Origin: Azotobacter salinestris
GTDB taxonomy: Bacteria > Pseudomonadota > Gammaproteobacteria > Pseudomonadales > Pseudomonadaceae
DNA length: 64,000 nucleotides
Assembly: GCF_009363155.1 (NCBI RefSeq)
Contig: NZ_CP045302.1
Span: 2,142,001 to 2,206,000 of the forward strand
Direction of reading: 5' to 3'
Shown here: positions 58,823-64,000 of the stretch, piece by piece
Layout: every line of letters begins with the position of its first letter
Numbering within the stretch: position 1 is the stretch's first letter
Made by a program: the position numbers and the translations under genes
The notes under the pieces: model-generated
What the model saw: the letters and a program-made list of their open reading frames with translations, nothing else
Database searches by the model: none
Told to the model about the DNA's origin: nothing

Positions 58823-58894
58823 GCGCTACCACCGAGGCCGGCAGACGCCCCCTGGCGAATCCACCGGCGAATCCACCTGCCGCTTAACGGGGCA

Positions 58895-59040
58895 TTCATT
58901 GCGGCGCAAGCTTTTGCGCCCGCCCGCTGGACGAGGAGGCGTGCCAGGCCCTTGAGGCAGAGGCCCGCGCCTCCCTGGCGGACCAGGCATGCCGGGGCAG
59001 TGCTAAACCAGACGCTTGCTTCACCGCCTATCGGTCGGCC
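58895..59040 (+). pseudogene. degraded duplicate of the gshA 3' end
   Basis: Translated in one frame it reads [28 protein letters not shown], close to gshA residues [28 protein letters not shown], then decays (TAYRSAW against AAYQASI). Nucleotide identity is obvious by eye over about 75 bases. It has no start codon of its own and is probably a remnant of an old tandem duplication or a recombination scar. Confidence 0.75.
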
Positions 59041-59230
59041 TGGACACTGCCACCAAGGCCCTTTCAGCCAGTCCGTGCAGTTAAGGGCGGGTTACAGCCG
59101 AACGAACTCGTCCCGTTACCCAAGGACTCCTCCAATCCGGCAGGATTGCTCCTTATTTTCTCCTTTTTACCGCAATTAGCTGACAAAGATTGCAATGTGT
59201 TGATCAGCCCAACCGTTCATCGAAGTCAAC

Positions 59231-59246
59231 ATATACGAATGTATAT
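59231..59246. promoter_or_regulatory. palindrome ATATAC-GAAT-GTATAT, operator-like
   Basis: Perfect 6-bp arms with a 4-base spacer in an AT-rich stretch about 100 bases upstream of the riboswitch. Confidence 0.4.
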
Positions 59247-59272
59247 CAGCATGTTATCGTTAGCTTGCTTGC

Positions 59273-59290
59273 AAAGATAGCGCTATCTTT
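59273..59290. repeat. 18-bp perfect palindrome AAAGATAGC-GCTATCTTT
   Basis: A full palindrome without spacer. The core TAGCGCTATCTTT recurs at 62863-62875, and a related TAGCGCTGTCT lies near 63005. Confidence 0.5.
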
Positions 59291-59344
59291 TAGCGCGCCA
59301 CAGCTCCGCTCCCTTGGTCAACTCACTCCACGGTGAGCGGAAGC

Positions 59345-59432
59345 TGAGCTGAAAAAGGCAAAACCATCGAAAGATGGCGACGCAAAGTCTCCGGTCTAAA
59401 GGAAATTTTCCGATGATAGCGGGACCGCCAGT
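59345..59432 (+). promoter_or_regulatory. c-di-GMP-I (GEMM) riboswitch
   Basis: The class I c-di-GMP aptamer is recognisable: GGCAAAACC, then the perfect stem CCATC/GATGG (59364-59368 with 59373-59377) closed by the GAAA tetraloop, then GACGCAAAG (59379-59387), CTCCGG, the tetraloop-receptor-like CTAAAGG, a short hairpin GGAA/TTCC, and the conserved end GATAGCGGG. It matches Vc2-type aptamers in order and spacing. It lies 290 bases before the GH70-like start codon. The expression platform was not identified; a GCGG-GA-CCGC hairpin followed by TTTT overlaps the 3' end. Confidence 0.88.
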
Positions 59433-59722
59433 TTTGTATGTCGACACGGTTTCCGTGCTCGCTTCTGAACTATTGCTCTTTCACTCGCCCCTGCTGGTGC
59501 CCCGGGCCTGCAGTGCGGTCGCATCGCGTGCGGATCAGGCCGCCCGGGTGAATGCAGCAATGCCTGGCAAGACTGCGCATGTCTTCTTCCGATGGGTCAT
59601 TCAACCGAGAAGAGTCAGGGGTATCGACATGAGCACACCCGACGCCACCCTGGCCAGCAGGAAGTTGCCCCTGGCAGCGCCCCTGTCGTGACTTCTCATC
59701 ACACAAGGTAAAGCGACTCCCC

Positions 59723-62062
59723 ATGAGAGCATCACCAAGCCAATTTTTTGCAATTTCCCTACTCAGCATCACGATTTCAGGCCTGTTGTCAGGCGCAGCG
59801 GTTGCGGCACCGGCCCCCACGGCGCTCGAGCAGGTGCCCGACGGCAAAGGCGGCGTGAAGTGGCAGGAAGTGACACCCGACACGTCCACCGAGGAAAGCC
59901 AGAAAGGCAAGAGCCAGCTTCTCGGTATCCAGGCGATCACCACCGAGCCGGATGGCAGCGTGAAGGTCGAGATGGGCAAGCCCGAAGTCCGGCAGCCCAC
60001 GTCGGGCGACGTCTTCGTCTCCAACGAGAAGCTCGACGAGCACGTCATCTTCCAGGCGTTCGCGCTCTATCAGCCGAACGACAACGCGACCTACAAGGCC
60101 CTGGCCAACAATGCCCCGCAGCTGGCGCAGTGGGGCATCACCGATGTCTGGTCGCCGCCGCCCTATCGCGCCGCCTCCGATTCCAAATACGGCGAGGGTT
60201 ATGCGATCGCCGACCGCTATGACCTTGGCGCCTACGACAAGGGCCCGACCAAGTACGGTACCGCCGACGAGCTGAAGGCGGCCATCGGCGCCCTGCACAA
60301 CAACGACATCCGCATCCAGGTCGACGTGGTTCCGAACCAAATCATCGGTCTGAATGAACGCCATGTACTGCCCGTGACGGGCGTCGACATGTACGGCAAC
60401 CCGAACAATCCCTCCATCGACAAGTACCTCTACTCGACCTACAGCAAGGGCTCGGCGCCGGGGCAGGCCGAGCACGGCGTGATCAAGGAGTGGGACTACT
60501 TCCACTTCCACGGGACCACGACCCAGTACCAGGGCATGTTCCGGGTACTCGCCGATGCGAACAATGTGCCCTGGCGCTACTTCGGTCCGCAGCATCCCGA
60601 CAACTACCTGCCGCAGTGGCTGGCCGAGAGCGACGCGGCCAAGTACGGCACGATCAACACCATTGACAACTATCTGCTGGCCGACAGCTGGTTCGCGATT
60701 GAAAATGCGGACAACGAATCCAACGCGGTGTATGCGCCGCTCTTCCTGTACTACGAAGAGCCGCGCTCCGATGTCGTCAACCAGGGCTTCCTGGCCTTCG
60801 CACGCGAAAATGGCTATACGGGCACCGACGAAGAAATTCGTGCCACCATGCTGAGCGAGTTGCGGACCACCCCCAACCCCATCGGCCCGCTGATGGATGA
60901 GTACCTGGCTGCCCAGCCCGGCTACTCGAAGAAATCGGAAGAGAACGCCATGGCCGGCGTTCTGCGCTACGACGGTCCCGAGAACGACCCGTCGCACATC
61001 GGTACCAACGTGCTCGACTTCGAGTACCTGGTGGGCAACGACCTCGACACCATCCGCGAAGACGTGCAGCAGGAGCAGCTGAACTGGCAGAAATATCTGC
61101 TCGACTTCGGTTTCGACGGCTTCCGCATCGATGCCGCCTCCCACATCAACACCGATATGCTGCGCGACGAGGTGACTCAGCGGCTCAACTACTTCGCCGG
61201 CGAGGACGTCAACGAGCACCTGAGCTATATCGAGTCCTATGTGGCCCAGCAGGTCGATTTCGAGCAGTCCAACAACTACGGCCAGATGGCCATGGACGCC
61301 GGCCCCTTCTCGGGCCTGATGTTCTCCTTCGGCCGCGACTGGGCGCCGCTGCGCTACGCCTTCGAGGCGTCGCTGATCGACCGGGTCAACGGCGGTCCGG
61401 CGCTGCCCAACTGGTCGTTCGTGAACAACCATGACCAGGAGCACAACATCCTGGTGACCGTCCCGCTGACCGAGGAAGAAGCCGGAGGCTACGAGCCGAA
61501 CAGCCAGCCCTACGAGCTGCGCCAGCTGGAGAAGTACGACGCCGACCGCAACAGCGTCGAGAAGCAGTGGGCGCCCCACAACGTCCCGGCCATGTACGCC
61601 ATCCTGCTGACCACCAAGGACACCGTGCCGACGGTCTTCTACGGCGACATGTTCGTGTCCTCGAAGCCGTACATGTCGACCCCGACACCGTACCGCGACG
61701 ACATCGTGAACATCCTCAAGCTGCGCAAGCAGTTCGCCAAGGGCGAGCAGGTGATCCGCTACGAGAACAGCAACACCGGCAGCAACGGCGAGGACCTGGT
61801 CAGCAACATCCGTCTCGGCAACGACCGCAAGACGGGTGTGGCCGTGGTCGCCGGCAACAACCCGGCGCTGGACACGACGATCACCGTCGACATGGGGGCG
61901 CAGCACCGCAACCAGTGGTTCGTCGACGCCATGGGCTACCAGCCGGAACGGCTCAAGACCGACAAGGACGGCCGCCTCACCGTTCAGGTCAAGGGCACTC
62001 AGAACGTGGACGTGAAGGGCTACCTGGCCGCCTGGGTTCCGGACCTCCAGGCCCAGGAGTGA
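59723..62062 (+). CDS. secreted GH70-like alpha-glucan enzyme (GtfC/GtfD-type order)
   Basis: A 779-residue secreted protein (signal peptide to about residue 28, ending AAVAA). The catalytic triad of the GH13/GH70 clan is visible: nucleophile D470 in FDGFRIDAASH, acid/base E504 in YIESY, stabiliser D571 in NNHDQEHN; motif I with D201 (VDVVPNQ) comes first, so the barrel is not circularly permuted. FEYLVGNDLDT and EQLNWQKYLLDFGFDG and YGTADELKAAIGALH are typical of GH70. Non-permuted GH70 enzymes (GtfC/GtfD, e.g. Azotobacter) are 4,6-alpha-glucanotransferases that rebuild starch-like substrates into branched alpha-glucans. Sucrose-using activity or hydrolysis remain possible. It is preceded by a c-di-GMP riboswitch. 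Confidence 0.75.
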   Translation: MRASPSQFFAISLLSITISGLLSGAAVAAPAPTALEQVPDGKGGVKWQEVTPDTSTEESQKGKSQLLGIQAITTEPDGSVKVEMGKPEVRQPTSGDVFVSNEKLDEHVIFQAFALYQPNDNATYKALANNAPQLAQWGITDVWSPPPYRAASDSKYGEGYAIADRYDLGAYDKGPTKYGTADELKAAIGALHNNDIRIQVDVVPNQIIGLNERHVLPVTGVDMYGNPNNPSIDKYLYSTYSKGSAPGQAEHGVIKEWDYFHFHGTTTQYQGMFRVLADANNVPWRYFGPQHPDNYLPQWLAESDAAKYGTINTIDNYLLADSWFAIENADNESNAVYAPLFLYYEEPRSDVVNQGFLAFARENGYTGTDEEIRATMLSELRTTPNPIGPLMDEYLAAQPGYSKKSEENAMAGVLRYDGPENDPSHIGTNVLDFEYLVGNDLDTIREDVQQEQLNWQKYLLDFGFDGFRIDAASHINTDMLRDEVTQRLNYFAGEDVNEHLSYIESYVAQQVDFEQSNNYGQMAMDAGPFSGLMFSFGRDWAPLRYAFEASLIDRVNGGPALPNWSFVNNHDQEHNILVTVPLTEEEAGGYEPNSQPYELRQLEKYDADRNSVEKQWAPHNVPAMYAILLTTKDTVPTVFYGDMFVSSKPYMSTPTPYRDDIVNILKLRKQFAKGEQVIRYENSNTGSNGEDLVSNIRLGNDRKTGVAVVAGNNPALDTTITVDMGAQHRNQWFVDAMGYQPERLKTDKDGRLTVQVKGTQNVDVKGYLAAWVPDLQAQE

Positions 62063-62218: not shown

Positions 62219-62822
62219 GGACTTGCCCCTCTCAAACCGGACACCGCAACCCCGTTAAGTTGATGCCGCGGTCATTCGCCTGAACTCTCGAGGCGAGCGG
62301 TAATTCGGGGCACTGTGCGGATGCTCCTTGTTGTAATGCTGGAAGGCAATCTCCAGGTTGCGTAGCGCCGTCAGGCGGTCCGGCCTGGGCATGTGGGCGA
62401 TGTAATCGCGCTTGATCGTTTTCACGAAGCTTTTCGCCATGCCGTTGCTCTGTGGGCTGCAGGCCGGCGTGGTCAGCGGCAGCAAGCCGATCTCCCGGGC
62501 GAAGGCCCGGGTCTGCTCGGCGGTGTAAGCCGAGCCGTTGTCGCTCAACCATTGGATCGGTGCAGGCGGCAACGTCTGGCCGAAGCGCCTCTCGACGGCC
62601 TCGAGCATGACATCGCGGACATCGTCACCGCTGTAGCCGTGGGGGGTTGGCCATGGCTTCCCGGTCGCAGCAGTCGAGGGCAAAGGTCACGCGCAGGCGA
62701 TCGCCATCGTCGCGGCGAAATTCGAAGCCATCCGAGCACCAGCGGGTGTTGCTCGTCTCGACCGCCACACGACCGTCATGGCGACGTGCGACGCCAAACT
62801 GCACTAGCGACGCTACGGATGC
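62219..62822 (-). mobile_element. IS3-family insertion sequence remnant
   Basis: The right end shows the terminal pattern TGTCCGGTTTGAGAGGGG (minus strand, about 62,224-62,243), typical of IS3-group ends. Only part of the transposase remains, and the left end, orfA and the start of orfB are missing. Confidence 0.7.
62255..62820 (-). pseudogene. IS3-family (IS2-like) transposase orfB fragment, inactive
   Basis: The integrase core is recognisable in two frames: FALDCCDRE (first catalytic D) in the upstream frame, then [10 protein letters not shown] (second D) and [17 protein letters not shown] in the downstream frame to the TAA at 62255. A frameshift and small deletion lie near 62,640, in a run of C/G. 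The third catalytic residue, normally E in NGMAEAF, is K here. The protein cannot be a functional DDE transposase. Confidence 0.85.
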
Positions 62823-63258
62823 AAAGAAGGATTCTTGCCAAACAAAATTCCAAAGGATAAGTTAGCGCTATCTTTATGGCGCTGAACTTGTCGGGGTGTG
62901 TTTTCACCCAGCCACCCGCCCGCTTCCGACCAGTATCAGTGGCAAGCAACAACAACAACAAGCTAACGGCGACAGATTTCGCTTTACCATCAGCATTGAT
63001 TTGTGTAGGTAGCGCTGTCTCCATGCCAAGGAAGAAACCTATGCTTTCCTCCAGCTCCATGGTGCTGAACACGGGTTCGCCGATCGCCGCCAACCCTGCA
63101 CTCCTAAAGCGCTTTGCCAGCGCAGTGATCTCATTCTCAAGCACCGGAATTTCCGCCTCCCGTCCTCCGCACACCTTCACGACGAAGCGCATGGTGCAGG
63201 CGGCCGGCGGTAGAGCTGCCTCTCGCAGCGCCCCGGCAGGTCCAATCCCCTCACTCAT
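62776..63258 (-). CDS. hypothetical ORF of unknown function, partly fused to the IS remnant
   Basis: An open frame from an ATG at 63258 ([16 protein letters not shown]) that includes [29 protein letters not shown] and [19 protein letters not shown], which look protein-like. I recognise no family. No good ribosome site precedes the start. After about residue 135 the frame runs into the insertion-sequence remnant, so any original C-terminus is lost. It may be a decayed gene or a chance frame. Confidence 0.3.
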
Positions 63259-63480: not shown

Positions 63481-64000
63481 ATGCAGCCAACAAGGTTCCG
63501 CAAAACACTGCTGAGCGTCATGGTAAGCGCCGTGGGCCTCTGTCAAACCGCGCTGGGTGCCGCCCCCGGTACCGGCGTGGTGGAGAGCGTGGCCCCGGGC
63601 GCGCCGGGAAACGCACCGTTCTGGTCCTATTCGGGAAAAACCGGTATCGGCACCTCCTACGAGCAGTACAACGAAGATGGCCAATATGCCCCTTCGGCGG
63701 CCACCGGCCCCGTGTCGAAAGTCTGGTTCTCCCTGGCCCAGGGGATCATCACCGAGACCATGTTCGGCTTGATTCATGAAGCTCAGCTCAGGGAGTTGCA
63801 ACTGGTTATCCAGGGGCCGGACTTCGTGGATCTGGAAGCGCAGGACACCGACAGCGAAATTCACTACCTGTCGGTCGACGGCGAGGGCCGCCCCAATTCG
63901 CTCGCCTACAAGATCATCAATCGCGACAAGGAAGGCCTGTACGAGATCGAGAAACACGTGTTCACCGATCCGAACACGAACTCCCTGATGATGCGGGTCA
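63481..64000 (+). CDS. secreted GH15 glucoamylase/glucodextranase-type enzyme, N-terminal part
   Basis: The first 173 residues are inside the window; the gene continues beyond it. A signal peptide (to about residue 26, TALGA) is followed by APGAPGNAPFWSYSGKTGIGTSYEQ and VSKVWFSLAQGIITETMFG and LRELQLVIQGPDFVDL, the N-terminal super-beta-sandwich domain of bacterial GH15 glucoamylases and glucodextranases. The catalytic (alpha/alpha)6 domain would lie further on. AGGA eight bases upstream supports the ATG at 63481. It would release glucose from alpha-glucan ends, a natural partner of the upstream GH70-like enzyme. Confidence 0.8.
   Translation, partial: MQPTRFRKTLLSVMVSAVGLCQTALGAAPGTGVVESVAPGAPGNAPFWSYSGKTGIGTSYEQYNEDGQYAPSAATGPVSKVWFSLAQGIITETMFGLIHEAQLRELQLVIQGPDFVDLEAQDTDSEIHYLSVDGEGRPNSLAYKIINRDKEGLYEIEKHVFTDPNTNSLMMRV

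Follow-up and report, generated by a model that had tools for sequence, protein, structure and literature searches.

Control of biofilm polysaccharides by cyclic di-GMP (c-di-GMP) is usually discussed for membrane synthases, such as those of cellulose, Pel, and alginate. In Azotobacter, c-di-GMP governs the exopolysaccharides alginate and cellulose through FleQ and through activation of a synthase (PMC12022260, PMC4465626). Among riboswitches of the c-di-GMP-I (GEMM-I) type, the closest described systems are Vc1 and Vc2 of Vibrio cholerae, which stand before environment-related genes (gbpA, coding for a sugar-binding protein, and the tfoX-like VC1722, coding for a regulator) (PMC12564702), and Bc1 of Bacillus thuringiensis, in which the aptamer is joined to a long expression platform with two intrinsic terminators (PMC11218506). 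Here we describe a c-di-GMP-I aptamer that precedes gtfD, a gene for a secreted enzyme of glycoside hydrolase family 70 (GH70), in a 64,000-nt stretch of the Azotobacter salinestris genome (contig NZ_CP045302.1, positions 2,142,001 to 2,206,000; here called the window). The arrangement resembles that of Vc1 and Vc2, except that the target is a polymer-making GH70 enzyme. As with alginate and cellulose, c-di-GMP would govern an exopolysaccharide, but it would do so through a riboswitch on a secreted transglycosylase. The leader is also comparable to that of Bc1, although no intrinsic terminator was found in it.

The enzyme itself is not new: GtfD of Azotobacter chroococcum NCIMB 8003 (AJE22990.1) has been characterized, and the polymer that it forms from starch and maltodextrins is reuteran-like (PMC5388325). 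The words “riboswitch” and “c-di-GMP” occur neither in that paper nor in a review of GH70 enzymes (PMC11299179), and the accessible part of the NCIMB 8003 genome paper names cobalamin riboswitches only (PMC4465626). The author of a preliminary description of this DNA had known of no such pairing, and among the matches listed in our literature search, outside which most subscription papers lie, we likewise found no report of a c-di-GMP riboswitch with polymer enzymes of this kind. The aptamer is an ordinary member of its Rfam family and GtfD is a known enzyme; the novelty lies in the class of target, and attention is due to the leader module together with its secretion context.

The aptamer and the gtfD gene

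A scan of the whole window against Rfam at the gathering threshold returned a single match, to the c-di-GMP-I model RF01051, at 59347-59432 on the plus strand. The match scored 75.9 bits (gathering score, 35; E = 4.1e-13) and covered the full model (positions 1 to 87 of 87). This covariance-model comparison had been proposed in the preliminary description, which had recognized a well-formed GEMM aptamer 290 bases upstream of a GH70-like gene. The scan bore this out: the GAAA-capped stem, GACGCAAAG, CTAAAGG, and GATAGCGGG are all present in the sequence, and the coordinates and the distance from the aptamer end to the gtfD ATG (290 nt, same strand) are right. RF01051 matched twice in the entire A. 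salinestris genome (5.29 Mb, three contigs), the gtfD-leader site being the better of the two (E = 7.9e-15), and in none of 14 control genomes.

The gtfD product matched Pfam PF02324 (Glyco_hydro_70) with 190.5 bits (cut-off, 24), and among solved structures it is closest to the 4,6-alpha-glucanotransferase 7zc0 (532 bits, residues 95 to 774). Motifs I, II, III, and IV occur in nonpermuted order at residues 200, 466, 499, and 566, with the nucleophile D470, the acid/base E504, and the transition-state stabilizer D571 in place, and the His that follows the gap after motif IV (DQE-H) is present in FVNNHDQEHN at 566. Nonpermuted motif order and the catalytic D, E, and D are criteria of the GtfD subfamily, for which DQE-H has been proposed as a fingerprint; the NCIMB 8003 enzyme belongs to the same subfamily and has nearly identical motifs I to IV (PMC5388325, Table 1). 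An N-terminal hydrophobic stretch was read by eye as a signal peptide. What had been announced as a secreted GH70-like alpha-glucan enzyme can thus be narrowed to a 4,6-alpha-glucanotransferase of the GtfD type, and by analogy with the NCIMB 8003 enzyme, the window GtfD would be expected to show this activity and to yield a reuteran-like product.

GtfD is rare among the genomes searched. A protein scan of genome contigs returned four loci with a relative; the GtfDs that PMC11299179 and PMC5388325 name from the Gram-negative families Rhodanobacteraceae and Burkholderiaceae lie outside this set. The nearest named relative is that of A. chroococcum DSM 2286 (91% identical in the best segment), the protein of an Oceanospirillaceae metagenome-assembled genome (MAG) is 74% identical, and fragments occur in Azotobacter beijerinckii DSM 378 and Vibrio albus E4404. 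Within the relatives set, 7 of 57 genomes matched at E 0.001, two of them over the full length (A. salinestris itself and DSM 2286), a third in pieces, and the remaining four over residues ~108 to 207 only. The class sample gave a single match at E 1e-40 in 369 genomes, A. salinestris itself, and the family of the MAG a single one at E 1e-10 in 116, the MAG itself. Matches at E 1e-10 were found in 21 of 296 genomes of the V. albus family (taken as Vibrionaceae), none full length; V. albus has a piece corresponding to residues 706 to 776, and the others are limited to residues ~105 to 272, as expected of alpha-amylases. The 46 plasmid GH70 records, all less than 60% identical, come from lactic acid bacteria and Enterococcus.

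All three intact gtfD loci found carry the aptamer 275 to 290 nt upstream of the gene (A. salinestris, 75.9 bits and a gap of 290 nt; DSM 2286, 77.1 bits and 290 nt; MAG, 71.7 bits and 275 nt). Between Azotobacter and the MAG, the greater part of the leader and some of the gene have changed, and the aptamer is far better kept than its flanks. Exact stretches of 10, 10, 21, and 22 nt are shared by the window and MAG leaders in or at the edge of the aptamer; outside this region, shared stretches reach 9 nt or more in only two places, GACTGCGCAT (10 nt) and ACATGAGCA (9 nt). Since the link between aptamer and gtfD persists beyond the genus in spite of the diverged leader, the pairing is no accident of one genome. 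In A. beijerinckii, intact gtfD and the aptamer have been lost together: the gene is reduced to residues ~1 to 65 and 665 to 779, and the genome has no RF01051 match. What remains in the leader of this remnant is an apparent degenerate 3' hairpin and the GACTGCGCAT block, in whose region “ggactgcgcat” recurs.

Base pairing was counted on seven aligned leaders and compared with 500 shuffles, the two leaders of genome G458 (see below) lying outside the counts. In the named structure, 96.8% of cells were paired compared with 93.5% in shuffles, none of which scored as high, and slid versions reached at most 53.1%. The covariation score was 0.178 compared with 0.126 in shuffles (reached by 2 of 500; slid versions, at most 0.066), and seven cells were changed on both sides, a count as high in only 2 of 500 shuffles. 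Helices 1 to 4 were 100% paired and helix 5 was 92.9% paired; the GAAA-capped helix contains two pairs changed on both sides. Conservation of the aptamer above its flanks, together with pairing kept through changes, suggests selection on the aptamer.

The same module before levansucrase and type II secretion genes

We built a covariance model (R1) of the aptamer plus its 3' extension and hairpin from the window, DSM 2286, MAG, and V. albus leaders. Nine sites scored at least 96 bits: three before gtfD, five before the levansucrase gene sacB, and one before gspC, a type II secretion gene. Four of the nine had served for training; the independent five are those of G759, G804, and G837 and two in G458. 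The next-best site (84 bits) precedes an ORF that by eye resembles a secreted protease.

In V. albus, an aptamer of 82.7 bits (RF01051) is followed by the same short 3' hairpin and then by genes for a levansucrase (PF02435, 472.6 bits) and a GH32 enzyme. R1 matched 254 of the 296 V. albus-family genomes at E 1e-6, only four sites scored at least 100 bits (144.1, 119.1, 112.1, and 101.8), and all four precede sacB. For 26 lower-scoring sites the locus was returned; 23 of these have a downstream ORF, by eye never a levansucrase or GH70 gene. GH68 genes occur in six of the 296 genomes, the four with R1 before sacB plus G716 and G742. Elsewhere, strong sites were few. R1 matched 6 of 371 order-sample genomes at E 1e-9, with only the A. 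salinestris site above 72 bits, and 5 of 116 genomes of the MAG family at the same threshold, where the MAG site (123.5 bits) and the two G458 sites (127 and 96.7 bits) were followed by one of 61.4 bits.

The module DNA of the window is 86 to 90% identical over 93 to 127 bp to the leaders of V. albus, the MAG, and three other Vibrionaceae sacB genes, while the G458 sites are more diverged, one with GAGA for the GAAA loop and the other with AACG for AAAG. GtfD and levansucrase belong to different Pfam families and are nonhomologous; from closely similar module DNA before unrelated enzymes, we infer that this leader has been passed from gene to gene.

The G458 genome ties the module to secretion. 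Its 96.7-bit site precedes a type II secretion (gsp) operon in which C, D, E, F, G, and L were recognized by Pfam and a TPR-type protein and M by similarity; ~700 nt past the last gsp gene stands the 127-bit site, followed by sacB and a GH32 gene. Two copies of the module thus flank the whole operon, one before gspC and one before sacB. An orthologous gsp system lies beside gtfD in the MAG and, after a gtfD remnant, in Azotobacter, and GspE of G458 is 80 to 82% identical to GspE of each of four loci (three from Azotobacter and that of the MAG). A single 26-kb contig of A. beijerinckii holds sacB, two GH32-like genes, the gtfD remnant, and gsp genes. Judging from this neighborhood, GtfD may be exported through the adjoining type II system. 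The module before levansucrase and the gsp operon widens the original idea of a c-di-GMP switch on extracellular alpha-glucan remodeling and does not contradict it.

Some details of these loci were recorded alongside. Remnants of a second gtfD copy lie directly before the gsp operon in A. salinestris (L025, 18811-19045) and DSM 2286 (L026, 8183-8390), which suggests partial duplication or replacement of gtfD. The gspD gene of A. salinestris is split over two frames (L129, 3126-5254), reflecting either a sequence error or a broken secretin; in DSM 2286, A. beijerinckii, and G458, it runs in a single frame. We found no support for cotranscription of gtfD and the gsp operon in the MAG; by eye, a hairpin that resembles a terminator, with a T run, stands between gtfD and gspC.

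Sense, effect, and ligand of the leader RNA

We think it probable that the gtfD leader is a c-di-GMP-responsive switch, whichever its sense. Most probably, the RNA binds c-di-GMP. At high c-di-GMP levels, the aptamer would close the P1 stem (AGCUG/CAGUU), and gtfD mRNA would be made or translated in full; at low levels, the leader would take another fold and gtfD would stay low. From starch or maltodextrin present outside the cell, the secreted GtfD would then make a branched glucan of the reuteran-like kind. The polymer would be put together extracellularly and not by a membrane synthase, and gtfD may in this way serve in biofilm. This outline takes the switch to be gene-on. Supposing that the switch works, we favor this sense with reasonable but not strong confidence, from the kind of genes that the module heads and from the description of Vc2 as a gene-on switch (PMC12564702). 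More broadly, and with slightly more doubt than belief, we propose that the module marks a mobile c-di-GMP riboswitch regulon for polymers that are polymerized extracellularly (alpha-glucan by GtfD, levan by levansucrase, and a dedicated gsp operon), in which c-di-GMP would set both enzyme and exporter. In V. albus, a GGDEF gene and an HD-domain (DUF3391) gene adjoin the riboswitch-sacB-GH32 cluster (L072, 12767-14692 and 15229-16488), and we counted these neighbors in favor of c-di-GMP control. If the proposal is true, c-di-GMP acts by RNA on secreted enzymes that make levan and branched alpha-glucan and, in one genome, on the secretion machine too. GtfD, treated mainly as a starch-modifying tool in PMC5388325 and PMC11299179, would gain a physiological setting, and why rhizosphere bacteria carry it would become a directly testable question.

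Several results weigh against a working switch. The case rests on only three intact gtfD loci, two of them from close relatives, and two of the pairing statistics are not unusual: three pairs have double changes (98 of 500 shuffles as high), and there are 11 further pair types (364 of 500 as high). The module is absent before three Azotobacter sacB genes that share 83 to 84% identity with the V. albus gene (genomes G000, G001, and G002, the last without any RF01051 match) and before the GH68 genes of G716 and G742, around each of which 12 kb holds no GEMM; a GEMM before every sacB is thereby ruled out. No intrinsic terminator that passes the rule lies in the A. salinestris gtfD leader, and candidates in the other eight leaders (DSM 2286, -9.4 kcal/mol; MAG, -15.3; G759, -10.4; and more) are scattered, with no common place. 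Positions 58850-59800 hold four terminator-like sites (1.0 expected), only one of them on the plus strand and that one upstream of the aptamer; no sigma-70-like promoter was found there. As a whole, the leader is no more stably folded than its shuffles (z = 0.36). With the aptamer helix enforced, the start region of the window was predicted to be just as accessible as without it (0.61 and 0.61), and changes in the other six leaders were small or nil and of mixed sign. Pairing of the GACTGCGCAT block with the aptamer ranked, counting from 0, at best 11th (MAG) to 28th (window) among leader windows. Since the candidates for an expression platform (terminator, start accessibility, and GACTGCGCAT pairing) gave no consistent answer, we name none.

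Among other explanations, the one that survives best keeps the switch and reverses its sense: with c-di-GMP turning gtfD off, the enzyme would be made by planktonic starch feeders and not by biofilm cells. Both senses exist in this aptamer type, Cd1 being an off switch and pilM, which responds to cyclic GMP-AMP (cGAMP), an on switch (PMC9262584), and gtfD adjoins genes for alpha-glucan breakdown (clearly so for a GH15 gene, weakly for a second glycosidase gene). Indirectly, the presence of the module before levansucrase and the gsp operon fits matrix building better than feeding, and the gene-on description of Vc2 points the same way. We regard the off sense as the less likely one.

Less likely still is that the aptamer folds but has no regulatory effect, being a passenger of horizontal transfer, and that gtfD is controlled at its promoter by a regulator bound to an 18-bp dyad upstream of the aptamer (Table 1). 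The failure to recognize an expression platform would fit this, and there is a precedent in Bc1, a natural c-di-GMP-I riboswitch that binds its ligand but whose expression does not follow c-di-GMP (PMC11218506); this too weighs against a working switch at gtfD. The dyad is in itself a candidate control site. Allowing up to three mismatches, we found two matches in the window and four in the 20-kb A. salinestris locus L025 (0.01 expected in each case); the copies precede gtfD, the GH15 gene, the second, divergent glycosidase gene, and the gtfD remnant (further sites at L025, 18180-18197 and 18714-18731). In the DSM 2286 stretch L026 there are three matches, and the one at gtfD, with two changes placed symmetrically, is again a perfect dyad; there are none in the MAG locus or in the A. 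salinestris sacB locus. The AGCGCT center resembles LacI-family operators, and the dyad is likely the operator of a regulator common to the alpha-glucan genes of the locus. What argues against a passenger is that, when Azotobacter is compared with the MAG, the flanks have changed far more than the aptamer and that the pairing of the aptamer is kept through changes. A riboswitch and a local regulator may both be at work, in that gtfD may need the regulator as well as c-di-GMP.

A change of ligand is the least probable of the alternatives. The first G of GGCAAA, at 59357, which by our own mapping corresponds to G20 of Vc2, is the putative ligand-selectivity position, and all seven aligned leaders have G there. 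Although both ligands are known for this aptamer type, cGAMP binds a G20A GEMM-I aptamer (PMC6274999), and the G20 position has been called a selectivity factor and not a hard filter (PMC9262584), it is very improbable that this RNA, with its G, has GEMM-Ib-like specificity for 3',3'-cGAMP.

Other features of the locus and further c-di-GMP-I sites

Table 1. Features in and around the gtfD leader (window coordinates)
Feature	Position	Strand	Remarks
Perfect 18-bp dyad AAAGATAGCGCTATCTTT, 56 nt upstream of the aptamer	59273-59290		Candidate operator of alpha-glucan genes
c-di-GMP-I (GEMM-I) riboswitch aptamer	59347-59432	+	RF01051, full length; also in DSM 2286 and MAG
Putative closing P1 stem AGCUG/CAGUU (59347-59351 with 59429-59433)	59347-59433	+	Paired in 7 of 7 leaders; G-U/A-U changes only
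Hairpin directly 3' of the aptamer, CGACACGG UUU CCGUG C UCG	59442-59461	+	Partly conserved
Conserved 10-nt leader block GACTGCGCAT	59571-59580	+	Identical in window, MAG, and DSM 2286
Possible 20-codon upstream ORF MSTPDATLASRKLPLAAPLS	59629-59691	+	Shine-Dalgarno-like AGGGG; read by eye
gtfD, secreted GH70 4,6-alpha-glucanotransferase, 779 amino acids	59723-62062	+	PF02324, PDB 7zc0, conserved motifs
Transposase-type ORF (integrase core) between gtfD and the next gene	62255-62683	-	PF13683, PF00665
Second dyad copy, two mismatches, upstream of the GH15 gene	62858-62875		Search allowing up to three mismatches
Start of secreted GH15 glucodextranase-type gene, running off the window	63481-64000	+	Start codon by eye

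The hairpin that follows the aptamer folds at -8.6 kcal/mol in the window (z = -2.06). In the seven leaders, 88.1% of its cells are paired, with one pair changed on both sides and five cells unpaired. Its energy ranges from -10.0 kcal/mol in V. albus through -5.4 in the MAG and -3.8 in G837 to -1.3 in G759 and -0.8 in G804; because it is weaker in the MAG and G837 and nearly absent in G759 and G804, we call it only partly conserved. The start context ACATGAGCA of the possible upstream ORF is identical in the MAG, where a 16-codon ORF ends overlapping the gtfD ATG. As a guess, the 20-codon ORF would allow translational coupling or Rho control. Its codons are the final 20 of a longer ORF (59374-59691, 105 amino acids), which shares sequence with the aptamer. 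This longer ORF matched nothing in Pfam and was taken as spurious.

Downstream of gtfD, the GH15 gene is complete in L025, with Glucodextran_N and Glyco_hydro_15 matches. The MAG has a 76% identical homologue, divergently oriented, next to gtfD; stretches L026 and L132 of DSM 2286 yielded none. The second glycosidase near gtfD has weak Pfam matches, GDE_C among them.

Further c-di-GMP-I sites were noted in these genomes. The second site of A. salinestris (C2:3002386-3002312, minus strand) precedes a gene for a short RTX-repeat protein, beyond which lie two ORFs that by eye look like multicopper oxidases, and in DSM 2286 the second site is followed by a long ORF that matches DUF5801 and looks like an adhesin. 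Sites of 76.5 and 80.1 bits in G011 and G026, genomes of one genus of Pseudomonadaceae, stand before the gene for a small unassigned protein, after which come ORFs that by eye resemble a small GTPase and its partners, an unusual target. Finally, three c-di-GMP-I sites lie inside 14 kb of one MAG contig (G424, C37), each before an ORF that looks, by eye, like that of a secreted protein.

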